Positions 1 through 10,399 of a stretch of DNA of 10,399 bases are shown one piece after another. Below the pieces are notes generated by a model. The model saw only the letters and a list, made by a program, of their open reading frames with translations, had not been told where the DNA came from and did no database searches. The stretch comes from Verrucomicrobia bacterium TMED44. Lineage in GTDB: Bacteria > Verrucomicrobiota > Verrucomicrobiia > Opitutales > Seribacteraceae. Each line of letters opens with the position of its first letter. Position 1 is the stretch's first letter. The stretch is from the NCBI GenBank assembly GCA_002168015.1, contig NHCX01000080.1, positions 8,215-18,613 of the forward strand, read 5' to 3'. The translations under genes were made by a program, and so were the position numbers.

Positions 1-1727
1 TTAGAACTTCCCTCTGCAAATTCGAGGTCATCACCCAGGCGTAGAATTTCTTCAATTTCTCCTGTTACTTTTTCTCCTAAATCCCGTTCTTTTATAAATT
101 TCGTCAATTCATCACTGGAAAGTGCAAAACTATTTCGACTTTTATCCATCTTGTTAATTTGCATTCTCAGCAAGTCTTTGAACGCACGAAAGAATTGGAC
201 ACCGTCGCGATGCTCAGTACTTTCATTAAGTTTGCGACTCAAGTTAGCTTTTTTGATCCGAAAATCTTCCTTCAAGCTATTTCTTTTCTTCGAACCCAAA
301 ATCAAAAAAGTCGCAACTGTGAAAAATGGAATCAATTGGATAACCCAGAACCATGAGTTTTTATCTACTGGGGTACTTTTTAGAGATGTTGTCCACTCTC
401 CTGGATCGCTAGCAGTTTGAAATAAATCGCCAGGTGAACTTGGATTCTGCATGTTTTTTTGTGCCTCAGATGAAGAGGTACTCGGAGGGAGTTCCCATTT
501 TTTACCTGGGTTTACTTGGAGTTTTAAATTCTGCCCCTCGATCGTTTCATACCTCTCTTTGTAAGGATCAAAAAACGAAAACATTATAGAGGGTAAATCT
601 AAGCTTCCTTCTTTAAGGGGTGTTATAATAAATTCAAAATTCTGCTTGCCTTCAAATTTAGTTTCTTGGTTACCCTCAAAAAGAAAAGCGGGTGGTCCTA
701 CTTTGAATTCTTTGTTGGAGAGTAATTCAGGTGCAGGAATAGCAGCAAAATTACCCTGTCCCTGCAGTGAGAAGTTTAAACGTACAGGGTCACCAACTTC
801 AACTTGATCGGAATCTATGCGAGTTTTTGTGCTAAAGTTACCGATTGCACCAGAAAATCCAACCGGTTTGTTCGAATAAGGGAGAGGTTTTACTTCAATG
901 GATTTGGTGGGTAATGTAACGGTCAAAGATTCTTCTCTGCCAAAGCCAAAAAAAGGATCGTTAAAGAAGGGGCTTGTGAATGGAGAGTTCCTTCGTGAAT
1001 TTACCCTGACTCTCAAATTGACTTCGAAGCTGATGTCTTTAATTCCAGCCATTGCTGCAGTTAGACTAACCGGCCAGGTAAAGCTAGAGTATAATTTTCC
1101 GTACTTGCTAACATTCCTTTTTTCATCCGCCCATTTACCGAGCTTGTTACTTGAAAATGATTCACCAATTTTAGTTGGTACATTTTCTATTCGGTTCACG
1201 GGTAGGCGATCCCATATAAATAGAGTGAGTGACGACATTATCGTCTCGCCCTCATAGAGATAGTCCTTAGGGAGTTTTAACTCCAAAAAGGCCGCCTGCC
1301 TTAAATCCGCTTGTGCTTGCTTTTCTTTTTGGTTGGGGGGTAACACTTGCAAGGTAGCCGGAGGAACGATCAGCTTTTGTCCTTCAACAGTTAGAGGCCA
1401 AGAGGGAATCGTAAATGAGCCCACTCTTTCGGCTTGAACCTGAAAGCTAAGTTCTACTCTGACTAAGGGTACTCCATTAAAATTAGCAGTACGAAGAGTT
1501 TGCCGAGTGTTGGAGATTCTGAGTCCTGAAACCTGTGGAAGGCTGCCTTGAGGGTTTTGTTGAGTGCCATGAATTACAACTTTATAGGTGGCTCTGCCAG
1601 TACTTGACACAGAGGGTGGACTAAAGCTCGATTCTACATATATTTTTTGGCCAAAAGTTTTTGTGTGATTGAAGTTCACGCATTGGCAAATAATAAATAA
1701 AAAGATGCAATGTTTGAAAATGATCAT
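1..1727 (-). CDS. batD: BatD family protein, 3' end cut by the window edge
   Basis: This is an uninterrupted reading frame of 575 codons that leaves the window still open. The ATG lies 9 nt after the batB stop, with no clear Shine-Dalgarno. The N-terminus has a hydrophobic signal segment (residues 6-17) ending near FGQ; its cysteines do not form a proper lipobox. About 430 residues of beta-rich extracytoplasmic sequence follow, with the start of the mature part reading VESSFSPPSVSSTG and a DPFFGFG motif near residue 250, both typical of BatD. One TM helix (about 457-477, WFWVIQLIPFFTVATFLIL) precedes a basic stop and a helical cytoplasmic tail (about 480-575). BatD is known as the membrane-anchored, Ig-like component of Bat operons and probably contacts BatA/BatB outside the membrane. 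The tail resembles the C-terminal part of the DUF4381-like protein in the same operon. Family assignment is firm; molecular function is not established. Confidence 0.85.
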   Translation of the reverse strand, partial: MIIFKHCIFLFIICQCVNFNHTKTFGQKIYVESSFSPPSVSSTGRATYKVVIHGTQQNPQGSLPQVSGLRISNTRQTLRTANFNGVPLVRVELSFQVQAERVGSFTIPSWPLTVEGQKLIVPPATLQVLPPNQKEKQAQADLRQAAFLELKLPKDYLYEGETIMSSLTLFIWDRLPVNRIENVPTKIGESFSSNKLGKWADEKRNVSKYGKLYSSFTWPVSLTAAMAGIKDISFEVNLRVRVNSRRNSPFTSPFFNDPFFGFGREESLTVTLPTKSIEVKPLPYSNKPVGFSGAIGNFSTKTRIDSDQVEVGDPVRLNFSLQGQGNFAAIPAPELLSNKEFKVGPPAFLFEGNQETKFEGKQNFEFIITPLKEGSLDLPSIMFSFFDPYKERYETIEGQNLKLQVNPGKKWELPPSTSSSEAQKNMQNPSSPGDLFQTASDPGEWTTSLKSTPVDKNSWFWVIQLIPFFTVATFLILGSKKRNSLKEDFRIKKANLSRKLNESTEHRDGVQFFRAFKDLLRMQINKMDKSRNSFALSSDELTKFIKERDLGEKVTGEIEEILRLGDDLEFAEGSS

Positions 1728-1736
1728 GGAATAGAG

Positions 1737-4154
1737 TTAATAATCTCGACCATTCGCAGAAGTGCCAATGATGTTTTGTTTATTATCATCCAAGTTTTGA
1801 CTTTTGGACTCCATTTCCTGCAACAATCTTTCGTAGAGACCATTCACTTGCTCAGGGTCAGTTTCTTTGCTCCGTTCAGGATTATTTGACGGATCAGGGG
1901 TTGGATTGTTTTGTTCTGAATTATCTTCTGTTTGATTGTTATCTGATGATTGTTGCTGCTCCTGCGAATTATCTTGGATACCAAAGAGCAAGGGCTCTGT
2001 AGGTGATTCATAATCAATCCAGGTAAGGTAAGCTTTCTTTTCTTCTATGGGATAAGTGATATTGGCATCTGCGTTGTTAGGTAAGACGCAAACTGAATAT
2101 TGACCGGGTGGGGCAGGGAAGGTAAAGGACCCATTATTGTCAGGTATGAATGAGGTCTCATTATCATCTAGTTGGAAATTTCCATCTTTATCCAAAAAAA
2201 GTTTGGCTTGAGAAAACCCTGCCTCCTCATTTTCTTTTTGTGAATTACCATTTTTATCTGACCAAATTGTACCTCGAATGATAGGAGCAGAACGATAAGG
2301 CAGAGTAACGGTTGAGTCTCCTGGTTTTTCAATCGTAATGGATACATTTTTAACACCTGTTGGGTTTAATGGGGGCGGAGGGGTGGGGAAAACGGGTATG
2401 AGAAATGGATTAGAAGAACTATTAATTTCTAAGATCTCCGAATCTATGGAAAGGGAAACTGGATAAATTGAGGAGATCCATTCGAAGGCAAATTGCCCAT
2501 CCTGGTTTGTTTTCAGGAACGGCTCTTCGGTGGAATTATGCTCACCGTCATTATTTTTGTCCCAAAAAACTTTTGCAGATAGTCTAGTTTCGTTCTCTTG
2601 AACTCTGCCATCTCCATTGATATCACGCCAGATCACTCCCCTAATTATGCAGACAAGAGAGTTAATTCTTTCTTCAATTTGTTTTTTTAAAGAATTTAAA
2701 TTGGAGGAAGCCTTCAAGTTTCCATCTAACTGATAAGCAGATTCATAATAATTAATCGCTTTATCCCAAGTTTCTCTAGCTTTAGAAACATTTTGCTGGT
2801 CTAGCCAATTGTTGGTTTCCTTATAAAAAAGATTTCCTAATTCGTTGAGTGCTTTGGATTGTAAGTCAGGTGAATCTATTGATTGGTCTATTGATTGACG
2901 AAGTCTTTCTTTTGCCAAGCTGAAGTTTGATGACTTTGAATGGGCTAATCCAGCATTGAGCAAAAGCTTGGCCATCATGTTTGGCTCTACCTCAGAGCTT
3001 GCATTGATCTCAGTTTCATAAAACTTAGCTGCATGATTCCATTCTTCATTCTGGGCCGCTTCTTCAGCCCTTCTAATATTGTCTTGCTTTAAGCATCCAC
3101 TAAAAAAGCACAAGATAATAGTTAAGCAGAGAGTCATACCTTTTTTGATTGTTGATCTTGCTGCTGGAGTAAGCTTTTCAAATAGTAAAATTAGTACTGC
3201 AATTAAGGCAAAAGGTTGAAATCTTTCGATTGGTATTTCAGAGGAGAATTGCTCTCGAGTTTTTTGTTCGCCGATGGTTTTGAGTGTCTTGAAAACATTT
3301 GCTAGCCCTTGCCCAGTAGATCCTAAAGGATAGTACTTTCCGTTAGATTCCTGAGAGATTGCTTCGAGTGACTTTTCATCCATTTGGGAAATGATTGTTT
3401 GACCAGAAGGATCAAGCAAAAAATTTCTCGCAGGTTTATCCACTGGATCAGTAGGTATACGAGTTCCTTCTGGAGAACCAATGCCAATGGTAAATATTTT
3501 AATCCCTTCCTTTTCGGCTTCCTTAGCTCTTTTTAGCCCCCCACCTTCTAAATCCTCTCCATCTGAAATTAGAACCAAGAACTTATCCCGATCGTCATGG
3601 GAAAAGGATCGGGCGGCTTCATCTATCGGCATGGCCAAATTTGTTCCGGGAGATTTGATCGAGCCAACTTCCACATTACTTAAAGTATTGAGGAAGGCCT
3701 GATGGTCTAAAGTAAGTGGGCATTGTAGGAATGCATTTCCTGCAAAAGTAATAAGTCCGACACGATCCCCTCTTAGATCTCCAATGAGATTGGAAATACT
3801 GAGCTTAACTCTTTCAAGTCTGTTGGGTCGGACATCTCTTGCAAGCATACTTTTTGACACATCAAGAGCGATAATTAAGTCAATGCCGGAAGGTTTGGAT
3901 GTACGATTTTTTGAGCCCCATTGAGGTCTTGCCAGTGCTAGGGTAATAAATCCCAAGCCAACGAGGAAGATTCCAAGTTTTAGAAAATTTCTTTTTTTGG
4001 AATAAAGTGGAGATAATCTGGAAAATAATTTAGCTGAAGTTAACTTAAAAATCCTCCTTTCTTTGTGGCTTTCGCTCCAAAAGAAAACGATCAGTAAAAG
4101 AGCAATCGTTACCGAACCTGCAAGCAAGAAATAATGGCTTGTGAAAACAGTCAT
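1737..4154 (-). CDS. batB: BatB-BatC fusion: membrane VWA protein with TPRs and SdrD_B-like Ca-loop domains
   Basis: The protein has 805 residues from the ATG at 4154, whose ATGA overlaps the batA stop; a GTG at 4229 would extend it 25 residues into batA without a hydrophobic or family-like sequence, so it was not used. Order of parts: TM helices at about 9-25 and 59-75; the ARPQW motif; a VWA domain (about 90-290) with a complete MIDAS (D98-x-S100-x-S102, T171, D198); a third TM at about 314-325; a basic stretch; then a second signal-like segment at 340-354 (MTLCLTIILCFFSGC). TPR-like helices follow (358-495), then two SdrD_B-like domains (about 504-572 and 626-692) with four D-x-N/D-x-D/N loops, a Q/N/D/S/P-rich linker (727-770) and an amphipathic end (YERLLQEMESKS) like BatC termini. 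Charge distribution puts the VWA, TPR and SdrD_B parts outside the inner membrane. BatB normally has about 330 residues and BatC about 200-250, so this protein is clearly enlarged. A role in scaffolding the envelope Bat complex is inferred. Confidence 0.87.
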   Translation of the reverse strand: MTVFTSHYFLLAGSVTIALLLIVFFWSESHKERRIFKLTSAKLFSRLSPLYSKKRNFLKLGIFLVGLGFITLALARPQWGSKNRTSKPSGIDLIIALDVSKSMLARDVRPNRLERVKLSISNLIGDLRGDRVGLITFAGNAFLQCPLTLDHQAFLNTLSNVEVGSIKSPGTNLAMPIDEAARSFSHDDRDKFLVLISDGEDLEGGGLKRAKEAEKEGIKIFTIGIGSPEGTRIPTDPVDKPARNFLLDPSGQTIISQMDEKSLEAISQESNGKYYPLGSTGQGLANVFKTLKTIGEQKTREQFSSEIPIERFQPFALIAVLILLFEKLTPAARSTIKKGMTLCLTIILCFFSGCLKQDNIRRAEEAAQNEEWNHAAKFYETEINASSEVEPNMMAKLLLNAGLAHSKSSNFSLAKERLRQSIDQSIDSPDLQSKALNELGNLFYKETNNWLDQQNVSKARETWDKAINYYESAYQLDGNLKASSNLNSLKKQIEERINSLVCIIRGVIWRDINGDGRVQENETRLSAKVFWDKNNDGEHNSTEEPFLKTNQDGQFAFEWISSIYPVSLSIDSEILEINSSSNPFLIPVFPTPPPPLNPTGVKNVSITIEKPGDSTVTLPYRSAPIIRGTIWSDKNGNSQKENEEAGFSQAKLFLDKDGNFQLDDNETSFIPDNNGSFTFPAPPGQYSVCVLPNNADANITYPIEEKKAYLTWIDYESPTEPLLFGIQDNSQEQQQSSDNNQTEDNSEQNNPTPDPSNNPERSKETDPEQVNGLYERLLQEMESKSQNLDDNKQNIIGTSANGRDY
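1845..1976 (-). other. Low-complexity Q/N/D/S/E/P-rich linker in the BatB-BatC fusion
   Basis: Residues about 727-770 consist almost only of Gln, Asn, Asp, Ser, Glu and Pro with hardly any hydrophobic residue (for example QEQQQSSDNNQTEDNSEQNN). This predicts a disordered acidic spacer between the second SdrD_B-like domain and the short C-terminal helix. BatC proteins often have such a linker before a conserved helical end; that comparison is from family knowledge. Confidence 0.75.
2079..2279 (-). other. Second SdrD_B-like domain with two EF-hand-like calcium loops
   Basis: Residues about 626-692 repeat the plan of the first domain: IRGTIWSDKNGN start, with loop D633-K-N-G-N ending in E643/E644, the strand AKLFLD, loop D655-K-D-G-N ending in E666, then D-N-N-G-S-F-T-F and the PPGQYSV ending that is typical of SdrD_B domains. 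It is separated from the first copy by a proline-rich stretch (about 586-596, PTPPPPLNP). The two copies differ enough to be an old duplication. Confidence 0.7.
2439..2645 (-). other. First SdrD_B-like domain with two EF-hand-like calcium loops
   Basis: Residues about 504-572 of the BatB-BatC fusion read as an SdrD_B-type beta sandwich: G-V-I-W-x-D start, a loop D511-I-N-G-D-G ending in acidic E522, a strand (AKVFWD), a second loop D532-K-N-N-D-G with E543/E544-P, then a T-N-x-D-G-x-F-x-F strand. This matches the known consensus of that domain (GxVWxDxNxDGxxxxxE ... VxLDxNxxGxxxxxEP ... TxxxGxYxF). Such domains bind calcium and are extracytoplasmic, in keeping with the predicted side of the membrane here. 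Confidence 0.7.
3093..3137 (-). other. Internal lipoprotein-like signal segment inside the BatB-BatC fusion
   Basis: Residues 340-354 of the fusion start with Met, are preceded by basic residues (STIKKG), carry a hydrophobic core LCLTIILCFF and end in S-G-C followed by L-K-Q. This is the layout of a type II signal peptide, though F at the -3 position is not the usual Leu. It sits exactly where the BatB part ends and the TPR (BatC) part begins. The codon before the Met is preceded by AAAAAAGGT, too close to be a good ribosome site. It may work simply as a fourth TM helix. Processing or internal initiation is only a possibility. Confidence 0.5.
4151..4154 (-). promoter_or_regulatory. ATGA stop-start overlap between batA and batB
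   Basis: The batB ATG (4154-4152) and the batA TGA (4153-4151) share bases. This fixes the batB start in preference to the upstream GTG at 4229 and predicts translational coupling of two proteins expected to sit together in the membrane. Confidence 0.75.
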
Positions 4155-5209
4155 GGTATTTGCAGGAATAGAGTTCGATGGAGTAAGAATCCCAGAGTTA
4201 TAAAGATAGCACCCAGGGAAAGGGTCCACTGGTATAAGTCTTCAAACAAAGCATTCACCTCGAGTTGAATCTCAGATTTTTCCAGTTTATCGATTTCATT
4301 ATAGATGGAACTCAACCTTTTTTTGTCTTTAGCTTCAAAAAATTTGGCATCCGTAATGGTCGAAATTTCTTGGAGAATTTTTTTGTCTACTGGATAGTTC
4401 GCTACATCAATAACGGGTGTACCATTTGCATATCTTATCAGGTCTCTTGCATTAGGATCATACAAGTATGTCCGGGTTCTCGCATTTGTACCGATCGCAA
4501 TCGTGTAAATTTTGATCTCATCCTTTTTGGCACCTTCCGCATAAATTAATGGGCTGTGAGTAGGAGAGGGCTCATCTTTACCGTCTGTTAATAAAATCAA
4601 TATTTTGCTCTTAGATTCCAAGGTTCTCAGACGGTTAATTCCTTCAGCAAGGGCGGATCCGATATTTGTTCCTGTCTGCTGGGTAAGTCCAACTTCCAAT
4701 CTTGCAAGATTAGTTTGAAGGTATTGCTTATCAAGAGTTAAAGCACTCACCAGATAGGGATTGACTGCAAATGCGACTAACCCGATCCGGTCATGTGTTC
4801 TCTTTTCTATGAATTCTTTTATTACATCTTTCACCACATCTAATCTTGTGCTCATTTCTTCGCTCGATTGACTCATATCCAAGGCAAGCATCGACCCCGA
4901 TAAATCAACCGCCAAAACAATATCGACTCCACTCGATATTATAGTTCGGGAGCTCTGATCTAATTGTGGGCGAGCAACCGAGAGTATTACAAATGCGAGG
5001 CCGGTGTAAAAAAGAAAAGTTGGTAACCAAATCAATTTAGCTTTAAGAGATTTCCTAGGCATACTTAGTTTTTCAATAACTGAAAATTTGATGGCAGGTT
5101 TTCTACGCAGTTTACTATTTACAATCCAAATTGTGAGGGGAATTAGCCCTAATAGAGCTAACCAGTAGGGTTCAGCTAAGGTAAGGTTTTGTAGAGAAAA
5201 ATCTTCCAT
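4151..5209 (-). CDS. batA: BatA-type membrane VWA protein
   Basis: The protein has 352 residues, the usual BatA length. TM helices lie at about 15-30 and 60-78, separated by a basic loop (KLRRKP) that should be cytoplasmic, followed by the family motif ARPQ at 79-82. The VWA domain (about 95-290) has a full MIDAS: D102-L-S104-G-S106, T181 in TGTNIGSAL, and D209 in LLTDGKD. A third TM lies at about 328-345. The VWA domain is therefore placed outside the inner membrane with bound divalent metal. In Bat operons BatA and BatB are paired VWA subunits, and this gene touches its upstream neighbour (TAATG) and overlaps batB (ATGA), so production of the three should be coupled. The exact ligand is unknown for the family. 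Confidence 0.92.
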   Translation of the reverse strand: MEDFSLQNLTLAEPYWLALLGLIPLTIWIVNSKLRRKPAIKFSVIEKLSMPRKSLKAKLIWLPTFLFYTGLAFVILSVARPQLDQSSRTIISSGVDIVLAVDLSGSMLALDMSQSSEEMSTRLDVVKDVIKEFIEKRTHDRIGLVAFAVNPYLVSALTLDKQYLQTNLARLEVGLTQQTGTNIGSALAEGINRLRTLESKSKILILLTDGKDEPSPTHSPLIYAEGAKKDEIKIYTIAIGTNARTRTYLYDPNARDLIRYANGTPVIDVANYPVDKKILQEISTITDAKFFEAKDKKRLSSIYNEIDKLEKSEIQLEVNALFEDLYQWTLSLGAIFITLGFLLHRTLFLQIP

Positions 5210-6784: not shown

Positions 6785-7792
6785 TTAAGGCACTGGGATC
6801 GTTTCGAATATTTTCTTTACAATATCGTCGCTAGTTACATTTTCAGCTTCTGCTTCATAACTTACCATCACCCGGTGTCGAAGAACATCTAAACCCACAT
6901 CCTTGATGTCCTGGGGAGTGACAAAGCTCCTGCCACTCATGAATGCAACTGCCTTGGAAGCCAATGCCAAGCTAATGGTAGCTCTAGGAGAGGCACCAAA
7001 TCGAATGAAAGCACTTAACTCTGACGCACCGTAACTGTCCGGGTTACGAGTCGCTAGGACAACATCAACCAGGTAGCCTTTGAGTTTTTCATCTAAATAA
7101 ATGCCATCGACAAGTTTTCTAGACTTGAAAATAGTTTCTGCATCTACAACCGGATTGACATCGTGAGAGACGGAAACACTCGCATTAGCATTTAAAATTC
7201 GAAGTTCATCTTCCCGATTGGGGTAATCAACTACCAACTTAAGCATGAATCTGTCCATTTGGGCTTCCGGAAGAGGGTAGGTCCCTTCTTGGTCAATCGG
7301 GTTTTCGGTTGCTAGCACAAGAAAAGGTTGAGGTAACTGGTAGGTTTCATCACCGATGGTAACTTGCCTTTCTTGCATACCTTCGAGCAGAGCACTTTGA
7401 ACTTTTGCAGGAGCTCGATTAATTTCATCCGCAAGAAGAAGGTTTGTAAAAATTGGTCCCTTTTTAGTGGTAAATTCTCCTTTGCTTGGACTGTAGATTA
7501 ATGTACCTAGAACATCGGCGGGCAGAAGATCAGGGGTGAATTGAATTCGCTTAAAGTCAGCCTGTAAGCATTGGGAGAGGGTCTTGACTGCGAGGGTTTT
7601 GGCAAGACCCGGTACTCCTTCCAATAAAACATGTCCGTTTGCTAGCAGTCCAATAATCAAGCGGTCTACAAGATATTTTTGGCCCACAATTACGCGCCCG
7701 ATTTCGCTTCTCAGGAGTTCTACCCAGGAAGCTTCGTTTTGGATTTTTCGCTGCTCTTCAGGAGCAGGTGTTTGAATATTGGGATTTGTCAT
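6785..7792 (-). CDS. moxR: MoxR family AAA+ ATPase
   Basis: The protein has 335 residues from the ATG at 7792. A TTG ten codons upstream (7822) is in frame, but the MTNPNIQT start fits family length better. Motifs: E-I-G-R-V-I-V-G-Q (about 30-38), Walker A GVPGLAKT (59-66), a PDLLPADVLGT insert typical of MoxR (87-97), Walker B LLLADEIN (118-125), sensor 1 ATEN (161-164), the QEGTYPLPEAQMDRF segment with the arginine-finger region (168-182), and sensor 2 GASPRA (266-271). All catalytic elements are intact. MoxR ATPases form rings and remodel or mature partners, often with VWA domains. As the first gene of the operon, it is the likely cytoplasmic motor for DUF58, BatA and BatB. Confidence 0.95.
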   Translation of the reverse strand: MTNPNIQTPAPEEQRKIQNEASWVELLRSEIGRVIVGQKYLVDRLIIGLLANGHVLLEGVPGLAKTLAVKTLSQCLQADFKRIQFTPDLLPADVLGTLIYSPSKGEFTTKKGPIFTNLLLADEINRAPAKVQSALLEGMQERQVTIGDETYQLPQPFLVLATENPIDQEGTYPLPEAQMDRFMLKLVVDYPNREDELRILNANASVSVSHDVNPVVDAETIFKSRKLVDGIYLDEKLKGYLVDVVLATRNPDSYGASELSAFIRFGASPRATISLALASKAVAFMSGRSFVTPQDIKDVGLDVLRHRVMVSYEAEAENVTSDDIVKKIFETIPVP

Positions 7793-7934
7793 TGTAATTC
7801 TTAAGCCTCGAAGCGTAAGCAAACCATAGATTTGTCCAAGTTTAAATTAAGTTCGTTCTTTATGACAAATTTTTCTACTTGCGGAGTTGTGTCTGCTGGA
7901 GATGCTTAAAGAAAATATCTAATCCAAGAGTAAA
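7793..7934. promoter_or_regulatory. Divergent intergenic region between moxR and the CHASE2 gene
   Basis: These 142 nt are AT-rich and must carry the promoters of the Bat operon (leftward) and of the CHASE2 gene (rightward). I see no convincing operator palindrome. Directly upstream of the CHASE2 start, and in its frame, lies a six-codon ATG...TAA (7902-7922). That in-frame stop excludes a longer N-terminus for the CHASE2 protein. The stretch before its ATG reads AAGAGTAAA, a weak ribosome site. Confidence 0.5.
7840..7868 (-). promoter_or_regulatory. Possible sigma-70-like promoter for the moxR-bat operon
   Basis: On the minus strand TTGTCA (7868-7863) is followed after 17 nt by TTAAAC (7845-7840), about 48 nt before the moxR ATG. 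The -35 box is good and the -10 box is poor. In an AT-rich gap such a match can arise by chance, so this is a weak call. Confidence 0.22.
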
Positions 7935-10399
7935 ATGTTTAAATTTAGTAAAGAATCACAAATCACTTTCTTTAGTCTTCTGATTATCCCAGTCATTTGG
8001 GCGTGCCTTAATTATTTTGGACTTTTAGATTATTTAAAAACCAAGTCTGTTGATTGGAGGATGCAAATGAGAGGAGAGATAGCTCAATCCTCATTTGATT
8101 TGAATGAAACGATTATTGTCGAAGGGAATGTTTCCATTCCCAAAGTTCCTAAGCTTACCTATGTCAACTTCGATGCTTCTACCCTTGCGATGGATGATGT
8201 AGGGGAAAGACCATGGGATCGTGCTTTTTTTCGAGACATGGCGATGGCACTTATTGAGCGTGGGAATGCTCGTGTTCTCGCTTTTGACTTTGGGTTTACC
8301 CCTAAAAGTATGTCAAAAATGGTTCCTCTCGAAAACTCCTACAGGAGCGACATGGCTATGGGGGAGCTTGTCAATAAATACCCTGAAAAGGTAGTTCTTG
8401 GATGTCTTTATTCTGGGGTTCCCACTCCATTCGTGAAAGGTGTTGGTTCAAGTGCTTTTCCCCCTTTATTTAAAGATGGATATTCCATCGATTCCTCTTT
8501 TGAATCTGGGAAATTTAATTATCCGGAGTCTCCAACATATCCTCTGATAAATTATCAAAATGATCGGTACCTAGGAAGACTGGGATCTTTTACAGTCCCT
8601 CCCTACCGGGCTGTGGATGAGATTCCTCGTTGGGTTCCACTTTGGTTCCCATCCGGTGGTAAGTCTCACGCTTACAATTTGCTAGGAGGGAAAAAAAGTA
8701 AGTTAATTTTCGAACTTCCCAAGGAGAACGCTTCAAAAATAGAAGAATTAAAATCTAAGGTTCAGATCCTGAAATCTTCCAAGCAAAGCCTGCAAGCGAA
8801 ATTAGCACAGCATGCTTCAAAGATGGTTTCACTTACTGAAAAGAAGGCAATATTTACTCAAAAAATTTCCAAAATTTCAGCTGATAATAATAAAGTAGAT
8901 GAACTAAGTTCCGCTCTTAAGAATTTTACGAACACCCTTAAGGCAAACCCAGCCCTGTCAGCAGTGATTAGACCCCAAATTAAGAATAAGGAAATAGAAA
9001 TCTCTGAAATACTTCAGAGTTATTTTTCGGATGACGATTCGAACACTTCTAAATTAAACACCGCTGAACTTAAGGCTGAAATCGAAGAAATAAATGAAAC
9101 AATGGCTAATTTAAAGGTCGCATTGAATGCAAACCCAGCCCTTTCAGCGGTAATAGGTCCGCAAATTTCAAAAAAAGAAAAAAGATTACAAGAAATAAAT
9201 AAGTTACTAGAGGGGCAAAAAGATAACCCTCAAATGACATCTGAACTAAAAGAACAAGCTGTCAAAAAGATAAAAGCACAACTAAGCGATCTGAATAAAA
9301 GCTTGGAAAACATTAATCCTGAGCTTCAAGATGTTGGATCTAAGTTAGCATCAGCGAGGGTAGAAATTGATGAAATTGATGCTTCGATTAGTGCAGCTGA
9401 AATCAGACTTAGCCAATTTAAAGGGGATTTCCCCACAGAACTCGTTGAGGATAATAACACACTGAAGCTCGTTTATTCCGGTCAAGATTCTAAGCTTGTA
9501 GATAGTCAGCCTAATCAAGTTCCACTCTTCCATGACAAAAAGGTTTTCACTCTAGGTTTAGAGGCAATGCTTGCGTATTATGGTGTGAATGAAGATGCAG
9601 TCTTTATCTCCGAAGATAGAACGGTGATTAAAATTTCGGACACTGAAGGTAATAAAATTATTGATTGTAAAATGGTAGAGGGTCAATTTGTTGAGGTTAA
9701 TTGGTTTTCTAAATGGACTGAATTAGTTGAAGAAGAAGAACTTCTTCGAGATGCCAAGAAATTCTATGGCGATGAAGAATATGAAAAATACATCGCTTTG
9801 ATACGTCCAATATTCGAGTCGCTTATCAGTCGAGCATATGCTGACAATCCAGATGTAGACCAAACTGATATCTTACAGGCAATAAAAGATCTTGGTGTTG
9901 AGCAAGATAAAGTAAAACTTGCCCAAAAGCTGCTAAATGCAAAACATGATGATAAAAATCTTCCATCATTTGAACAACTCAGAGAAGTTGCAACAAGTGT
10001 CAGTTATTATTTTGTTTCTCCTAGACTGGAATCTGACTTTAACCCGATGTGTGGCATGCGTGATATCATCGAAAATGCCCGTTTTCAAGATGAAGTAACC
10101 GCGAGTATCATCAAACTTAATGAGAAGATAGAAAGTCTTGGAGGTCCAAATTTTATGGGTAAAATCAATTCTGCACTAGAAGCTAATCCTAAAAATGAAG
10201 ATCTTCTTTTAAAAAAAGTCCAAGTAGAAGAGGCAATTGCATTGAATCGAGCCACTCTTGCTCGTCAAGAAGATGAATTATTGAGAATCAACGATTTTTT
10301 TGCATCGTTTACAAACTCTATTGTTCTCATAGGACCAGAAGAGAAAACATTTCAGGACTTAGCACCTACCCCATTTGATAAGGCCACGGTTCCAAAGGT
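7935..10399 (+). CDS. CHASE2 domain protein with large coiled-coil insertions, 3' end cut by the window edge
   Basis: The frame is open for 821 codons from the ATG at 7935 to the edge. One TM helix lies at about 8-30, followed by L-L-D-Y-L-K-T-K-S-V-D-W-R, as in CHASE2 starts. CHASE2 landmarks follow: Y-V-N-F-D at 76-80, R-P-W-D-R at 92-96 and A-F-D-F-G-F at 116-121. The pattern resumes at V-F-T-L-G-L-E-A-M-L-A-Y-Y-G (537-550), continues to about 590, and returns with N-S-I-V-L-I-G (794-800) near the edge. Between these lie a coiled-coil insert (about 266-498) and a second helical insert (about 591-790). CHASE2 is an extracytoplasmic sensor domain, normally 300-400 residues, followed by TM helices and an output domain (cyclase, kinase or similar). 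The output part here is beyond the window, so the function is unknown. It faces the Bat operon across 142 nt, so co-regulation or sensing of envelope state is possible but unproven. Confidence 0.75.
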   Translation, partial: MFKFSKESQITFFSLLIIPVIWACLNYFGLLDYLKTKSVDWRMQMRGEIAQSSFDLNETIIVEGNVSIPKVPKLTYVNFDASTLAMDDVGERPWDRAFFRDMAMALIERGNARVLAFDFGFTPKSMSKMVPLENSYRSDMAMGELVNKYPEKVVLGCLYSGVPTPFVKGVGSSAFPPLFKDGYSIDSSFESGKFNYPESPTYPLINYQNDRYLGRLGSFTVPPYRAVDEIPRWVPLWFPSGGKSHAYNLLGGKKSKLIFELPKENASKIEELKSKVQILKSSKQSLQAKLAQHASKMVSLTEKKAIFTQKISKISADNNKVDELSSALKNFTNTLKANPALSAVIRPQIKNKEIEISEILQSYFSDDDSNTSKLNTAELKAEIEEINETMANLKVALNANPALSAVIGPQISKKEKRLQEINKLLEGQKDNPQMTSELKEQAVKKIKAQLSDLNKSLENINPELQDVGSKLASARVEIDEIDASISAAEIRLSQFKGDFPTELVEDNNTLKLVYSGQDSKLVDSQPNQVPLFHDKKVFTLGLEAMLAYYGVNEDAVFISEDRTVIKISDTEGNKIIDCKMVEGQFVEVNWFSKWTELVEEEELLRDAKKFYGDEEYEKYIALIRPIFESLISRAYADNPDVDQTDILQAIKDLGVEQDKVKLAQKLLNAKHDDKNLPSFEQLREVATSVSYYFVSPRLESDFNPMCGMRDIIENARFQDEVTASIIKLNEKIESLGGPNFMGKINSALEANPKNEDLLLKKVQVEEAIALNRATLARQEDELLRINDFFASFTNSIVLIGPEEKTFQDLAPTPFDKATVPK
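8943..8981 (+). repeat. Copy 1 of a 13-residue repeat (ANPALSAVI-x-PQI)
   Basis: Residues 337-349 of the CHASE2 protein. The copy at 9129-9167 matches at 12 of 13 residues (R346 here, Gly there) and at 32 of 39 bases. All but the R/G codon differ only at silent third positions, which points to a duplication kept by selection on the protein. Confidence 0.85.
9129..9167 (+). repeat. Copy 2 of the 13-residue repeat (ANPALSAVI-x-PQI)
   Basis: Residues 399-411 of the CHASE2 protein, exactly 62 residues (186 nt) after copy 1. Both are followed by a K-K/N-K-E stretch and a Leu/Ile-rich helix. Weaker relatives with an NP turn follow at N431 and N461 and, in the second insert, at N638 and N751. Confidence 0.85.

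Follow-up and report, generated by a model that had tools for sequence, protein, structure and literature searches.

Results

A BatB-BatC fusion protein with tandem SdrD_B-type domains

The DNA analysed here (the window, 10,399 nucleotides of contig NHCX01000080.1 from Verrucomicrobia bacterium TMED44) carries a Bat operon on its minus strand, in which a single gene encodes a fusion of BatB, with a VWA domain, and BatC, with a TPR-like part. Judged from sequence profiles and predicted structure, the BatC half contains two tandem beta domains that are SdrD_B-type at the family level. The gene, the two domain copies and their four calcium-type loops are listed below; residue numbers here and throughout follow an 830-residue frame with a GTG start unless marked ATG, the ATG number plus 25 giving the GTG number.

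1737..4154, minus strand: BatB-BatC fusion gene; 805 amino acids from the probable ATG start at 4154
2289..2657, minus strand: SdrD_B-like copy 1, residues 525-647; Pfam match absent in the window protein and present in L048, the separate BatC of a relative
1974..2288, minus strand: SdrD_B-like copy 2, residues 648-752; Pfam PF17210, E = 1.5e-5
2589..2624, minus strand: calcium-type loop 1, DINGDGRVQENE, residues 511-522 (ATG)
2523..2561, minus strand: calcium-type loop 2, DKNNDGEHNSTEE, residues 532-544 (ATG), with the conserved acid at position 13
2223..2258, minus strand: calcium-type loop 3, DKNGNSQKENEE, residues 633-644 (ATG)
2157..2192, minus strand: calcium-type loop 4, DKDGNFQLDDNE, residues 655-666 (ATG)

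The ATG at 4154 forms an ATGA overlap with the batA stop codon and most full-length homologs among the matches listed have about 795-816 amino acids, so we take it as the likely start; an alternative GTG-started open reading frame reaches 4229 and encodes 830 amino acids. A preliminary description of this DNA, made from the sequence alone, had placed four EF-hand-like loops at residues 511-522, 532-544, 633-644 and 655-666, an exact fit to the ATG-started 805-residue protein. The stretch it assigned to the domains, 2079..2645, holds all four loops but is too short, as copy 2 extends to about 1974 in the predicted model. Its reading of two copies of one pattern was borne out by their mutual alignment, which scored 93, compared to a mean of 26.5 and a maximum of 51 in 2,000 shuffles.

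The pattern D.[DN].[DN].{6}[DE] matches the whole protein four times, always within the tandem-domain segment. Among 20,000 shuffles of that segment, 19,341 had no match, 646 had one, 13 had two and none had three or more, figures to be read with the fact that the pattern was devised after the loops had been seen. Conservation was assessed in 101 sequences, comprising the window protein and 100 listed homologs with identities down to 42%. Positions 1, 3 and 5 held acceptable ligands in 101/101 for all four loops, and the closing acid was likewise present in 101/101. The EF-hand-like loops are near-invariant, but in loop 2 the acid lies at position 13 (E569, 101/101) and not at position 12, which is acidic in 6/101. 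Mean entropy was 0.57 bits at the 16 nominal ligand positions compared to 1.44 bits in the remainder of the region, a value matched by 2 of 9,999 random sets. The acidic calcium-coordinating loop residues expected of SdrD_B domains were thus found throughout the 101 sequences.

The profile search proposed in the preliminary description gave a partial match: PF17210 (SdrD_B) found the second copy at E = 1.5e-5, but with 25.6 bits against a cut-off of 29.7, and left the first copy unmatched. Four relatives (L050, L048, P0048 and P0100) likewise fell below the cut-off, with 28.9, 26.5, 22.0 and 28.5 bits, and PF17210 was precomputed on 73 of the 100 homologs among the matches listed. Structure prediction, the other check proposed there, agreed with the assignment. 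Residues 525-752 were modelled as two beta domains whose best fold match was the B1-B2 pair of SdrD. The predicted model has an Ig-like/CnaB-type beta fold, which is common and cannot alone decide SdrD_B membership. Dockerin was also considered because the loops are EF-hand-like; Pfam listed none even with E allowed up to 1, and the predicted beta fold and its matches to SdrD argue against it.

The pair lies between the TPR part and a conserved tail

Three further parts of the BatC half flank the tandem domains.

2673..3092, minus strand: BatC TPR-like helical part, residues 380-519; model helices up to residue 500 (ATG)
1851..1973, minus strand: polar/acidic low-complexity linker, residues 753-793; mostly predicted disordered, with a predicted local distance difference test score (pLDDT) <50 at 732-766 (ATG)
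1740..1850, minus strand: conserved C-terminal tail, a helix VNGLYERLLQEMESK followed by the terminal GRDY; identified by conservation, with a model helix at 767-784 (ATG)

Pfam TPR matches in the window protein were weak and below cut-off; TPR families are assigned to some homologs and also to order-level relatives that align across the BatC TPR part. The full-length model ends the last TPR-region helix at 500 and begins the first beta strand at 501 (ATG numbering), while its domain placement is unreliable because the predicted template modelling score is 0.40. The C-terminus reads [RK][DN][WY] in 93/101 family sequences, and [DN]W in 118/120 BatB-C proteins of a Verrucomicrobiota relative's list (the best 120 of 3,465). 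From its sequence, the terminal tail peptide (window 1740-1751 and homologs) is likely a docking peptide. Docking of the tail on the metal site of its own VWA domain was considered but is not supported, as the full-length model keeps the tail disordered, with pLDDT <50 over the final 21 residues.

Comparison with calcium-binding B domains

The SdrD B1-B2 pair of Staphylococcus aureus (PDB 10ps, 4jdz, 8vdk) likewise consists of tandem beta domains with a D-x-N-x-N-G loop directly after a Trp. SdrD was the sole named molecule among the sequence-profile matches and the top Foldseek match, and the top solved-structure matches were B domains of SdrD and UafA. Three differences stand out. First, identity is 10-19% over the fold alignments. 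Second, each copy here has a second EF-hand-like loop, whereas the aligned SdrD stretches have no such second loop. Third, the carrier here is a TPR/VWA protein, whereas SdrD is a cell-wall adhesin.

In the excerpts of PMC6232131 drawn on here, SdrG and SdrD B domains bind three Ca2+ apiece and need more than 2 nN to unfold when Ca2+ is present; ethylenediaminetetraacetic acid (EDTA) weakens or unfolds them. The Ca2+ affinity of SdrG B1 is estimated there as sub-nM, with variation between B domains, and excerpts of two reports describe SdrD-type B domains as linkers or stalks (PMC6232131, PMC9210967). By this analogy, the earlier suggestion that Ca2+ could rigidify a stalk is plausible, and we consider it probable that the protein is a BatB-BatC with an acquired SdrD_B/CnaB-type pair serving as a Ca2+-stabilised rigid periplasmic spacer that separates the TPR part from the conserved tail. 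The same four conserved loops might instead sense calcium and switch the Bat complex; the preliminary description had likewise suggested that the complex could respond to calcium. This reading found no support and we regard it as very improbable, since the sub-nM affinity estimated for SdrG B1 is more in keeping with a structural ion than with a sensor. Nor was any switch or signalling link found in the material searched. Sea water contains millimolar Ca2+, so that the sites would always be filled in those relatives that, going by their names, are presumably marine isolates, a further point against a sensor.

The domain pair is confined to one family in the genomes sampled

In a search of 57 relatives, a bat match was found in 33 of the 37 genomes of the window's family, and in 33/33 of these it extends into the SdrD_B region. 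The match to the fusion is split across two frames or contigs in G033 and G007. BatB-C matches in other families of the order stop at residue 541 or before. Two genomes of the window's family, G016 (C8, C3) and G035 (C28, C38), have two BatB-C genes each, all with the SdrD_B pair.

We then profiled 68 loci for the content of the corresponding slot. Excluded were L051 (partial, from the window's family) and L122-L124, which have no BatB frame; L048 and L050, both members of the window's family; and L045, L047, L049 and L128, where BatB has no downstream BatC frame. The 58 BatC portions that remained all come from outside the window's family but within its order. The survey's 62 other-family loci with a BatB frame came from 58 of 74 matched genomes, 16 being left out, and four from the 57-relative search. 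SdrD_B was detected in 0/58 BatC portions (own profiles, none at E <1). The slot contained low-complexity sequence in 52 and InlB-B repeats in 11 (both in 7), with neither in 2, and it had no recognised folded domain in 47/58. PF17210 was not among the 25 commonest Pfam families of the 58, a listing that a single-member family could escape, and neither PF17210 nor PF18998 was marked on any of the best 120 of the 3,465 proteins listed for the Verrucomicrobiota relative. As the preliminary description had supposed, the SdrD_B pair is not standard in BatB/BatC by sequence profile within the genomes sampled.

In a phylum sample, 40/387 genomes matched, the window's genome with 391.5 bits and the runner-up with 64.7. 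No BatB-like frame was present in the fetched stretch of G573, G484 or G445, whose matched frames are shorter than 1,000 amino acids; the other frames, of at least 1,133 amino acids, were left unopened. An order sample matched in 46/273 genomes, 33 from the window's family and 13 from other families. These 13 matches are weak (best E 2.6e-9) and lie in frames of at least 1,717 amino acids except for one 156-residue fragment; some window-family genomes have extra weak matches in frames of 1,748-3,702 amino acids. In a scan of one genome per species, 39/42 loci were titled Verrucomicrobia, Verrucomicrobiota, Opitutia, Opitutae or Opitutales and the other 3 were weak, at 24-27% identity; the scan is blind to independent SdrD_B-BatC inventions because its patterns were derived from the window's family. 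Within a single family of uncultured Opitutales (Verrucomicrobia), the SdrD_B-bearing BatB-BatC is a genuine and conserved version of a known protein.

Slot content and length differ widely between families. Such variation would suit a neutral insertion, in which any sequence would be accepted at this position and the SdrD_B pair would do nothing specific. We find this very improbable, given that the region is kept in 33/33 family genomes with a bat match and that the loops stay near-invariant down to 42% identity.

Divergent InlB B-repeats (PF18998) occupy the same slot in L032, L034, L036, L082, L098, L099, L104, L105, L107, L118 and L127, and Pfam PF18998 finds the same 11/58 as our own profile. 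These BatB-BatC proteins (families f7, f8 and f21 of the same order) likewise carry a foreign-type repeat module after the TPR part, although it is of a different domain family, with 2 or 4 repeats by our profile. InlB-B repeats are a type found in surface proteins, and their presence in this slot favours a reading of the tandem domains as a binding module whose surface, rather than stiffness, recognises an envelope ligand (protein, glycan or peptidoglycan). So does the near-invariance of residues outside the loops (W534, W556, E583-I585 and a PPPP run), which goes beyond what a plain spacer would appear to need. However, the top solved matches are SdrD and UafA B domains, the cited reports present SdrD-type B domains as linkers or stalks, and most other BatC portions have no recognised folded domain in the slot. 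We therefore hold a binding module to be rather unlikely and continue to favour the Ca2+-stabilised spacer.

A terminal W or Y was present in 48/58 other-family BatC portions. The 10/58 without this end comprise the four f7 members found (L032, L098, L099 and L104), which have no conserved tail, three at a contig end (L035, L038 and L106) and three unexplained (L043, L088 and L120).

An internal lipobox between the BatB and BatC halves

The N-terminal half contains the following features.

4068..4142, minus strand: hydrophobic segment 1, residues 30-54; from hydropathy, a helix in the predicted model
3921..3989, minus strand: hydrophobic segment 2, residues 81-103; from hydropathy and the full-length predicted model
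3354..3881, minus strand: VWA domain, residues 117-292; Pfam PF00092 E = 2.8e-17, PF13519 E = 4.2e-19
3156..3236, minus strand: hydrophobic segment 3, residues 332-358; from hydropathy, with a model helix at 313-326 (ATG numbering)
3090..3152, minus strand: signal-peptide-like segment inside the fusion with the lipobox FSGC at its end, residues 360-380; Cys379

The metal-ion-dependent adhesion site (MIDAS) of the VWA domain is kept, with D98 and D198 invariant and S100, S102 and T171 conserved in at least 90% (ATG numbering). A MIDAS-bearing VWA domain between membrane segments, within a MoxR-DUF58-BatA-BatD operon, marks this half as BatB; NCBIfam BatB_Lepto matched at E = 4.5e-38, with 131 bits against a 350-bit cut-off.

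Hydropathy places two segments near the N-terminus and a third past the VWA domain; the fourth has the lipobox at its end. In the related VWA protein BB0173 of Borrelia, three transmembrane helices and a periplasmic VWA domain are described in the excerpted report (PMC5700661). With a fourth crossing of the membrane, the BatC half would again lie in the periplasm. The hydrophobic segments, the BB0173 topology and the internal lipobox all support the earlier placement of the tandem domains outside the inner membrane.

The lipobox has the sequence features of a lipoprotein signal, placed after a hydrophobic segment between the BatB and BatC halves. Its Cys is kept in 97/101 sequences and the preceding Gly in 94/101. 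A loose lipobox pattern occurs in 97/101 family sequences compared to 6/58 other-family BatC portions, and a stricter one in 88/101 compared to 3/58. Many other-family fusions have a signal-peptide-like segment at this position without the Cys, according to a crude segment count that may include segment 3. In G033, BatC is a separate gene (L048) that starts with the same type of signal, LSGC. An Lgt gene lies about 7 kb beyond the window on the same contig, and an LspA gene is present in the genome. On sequence grounds, this internal signal points to a lipid anchor on the BatC half and perhaps to its cleavage from BatB.

Operon and neighbouring genes

By Pfam, the minus-strand operon encodes a MoxR ATPase, a DUF58 protein, a protein with a weak DUF4381 match under the cut-off, a BatA-like protein, the BatB-BatC fusion and BatD. 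Its order, moxR-DUF58-batA-batB/C-batD, is that of an ordinary Bat operon.

4151..5209, minus strand: BatA-like VWA protein; Pfam VWA E = 1.7e-18, BatA 23.5 bits against a cut-off of 25.9
3..1727, minus strand, leaving the window: BatD-like protein; Pfam BatD E = 6.7e-17, 595 amino acids in total from the contig frame
5825..6757, minus strand: DUF58 protein; Pfam DUF58 E = 3.9e-66
6785..7822, minus strand: MoxR-type AAA ATPase; Pfam AAA_3 E = 1.8e-65

Just past the window, a TPR-SH3 protein overlaps the batD end (L130:7342-8157) and may be a BatE-like operon member; a 214-residue frame ahead of it is the end of BatD, truncated in the stretch retrieved. A divergently transcribed neighbour, a CHASE2 protein, occupies window 7935-10397 and L131:38-2866, its frame extending beyond the window into an adenylate/guanylate cyclase domain. 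Close to the bat operon, L131:3519-9513 carries Lgt as well as rod-shape genes (MreB, MreC and a penicillin-binding transpeptidase).

Discussion

The BatB-BatC fusion is already known, and the excerpted Leptospira biflexa study calls Bat function elusive (PMC3557215). The L. biflexa protein likewise joins VWA and TPR in one chain within a Bat operon, in a comparison that covers the chain short of its C-terminal part, and other Verrucomicrobiota BatB-BatC proteins have the same chain and operon context. Unlike those of the window's family, the 58 BatC portions surveyed elsewhere in the order lack SdrD_B and rarely have a lipobox. A literature search of open-licence papers found no description of SdrD_B in Bat proteins. 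Nor did that search give any report of SdrD_B combined with BatB-BatC, of such a combination confined to one family, as in the genomes sampled here, or of an interchangeable slot; the fusion and the use of SdrD_B as a stalk are known.

Domain identity, conservation, position and distribution are computationally supported. In the mechanism that we infer for the spacer, the BatC half in one uncultured Opitutales family would have gained a tandem SdrD_B/CnaB-type beta-sandwich pair, inserted between the TPR part and the BatC end, where a disordered linker leads through a short helix to a terminal Arg/Lys-Asp-Tyr/Trp peptide. The last TPR helix would continue into the first beta strand, and bound Ca2+ would stiffen the pair, by analogy with the SdrG and SdrD B domains. 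Such a spacer would fix the distance of the tail peptide from the membrane anchor and so bring a partner, for example BatA, BatB or BatD, within the reach of the peptide.

More tentatively, the fusion could be a polyprotein in which Lgt and LspA use the internal signal, separating an inner-membrane BatB from a lipid-anchored BatC. The Ca2+-locked SdrD_B stalk of this BatC would then extend the conserved tail through the periplasmic space, possibly with the outer membrane as its base. The putative lipid anchor and stalk occur in one lineage, which may have acquired both at once.

Bat proteins are cell-envelope proteins of several phyla, widespread yet poorly understood, and SdrD_B-type domains otherwise occur mostly in large surface proteins. 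The variant raises the questions of whether stalk length determines which contacts the tail makes, and whether the fusion is cut in two at its internal lipobox. What would be a stiff calcium-type stalk stands at one exact place where other families have a disordered linker or other repeats, and this contrast at a single slot suggests that the distance from TPR part to tail, or the tail's reach, may be important.
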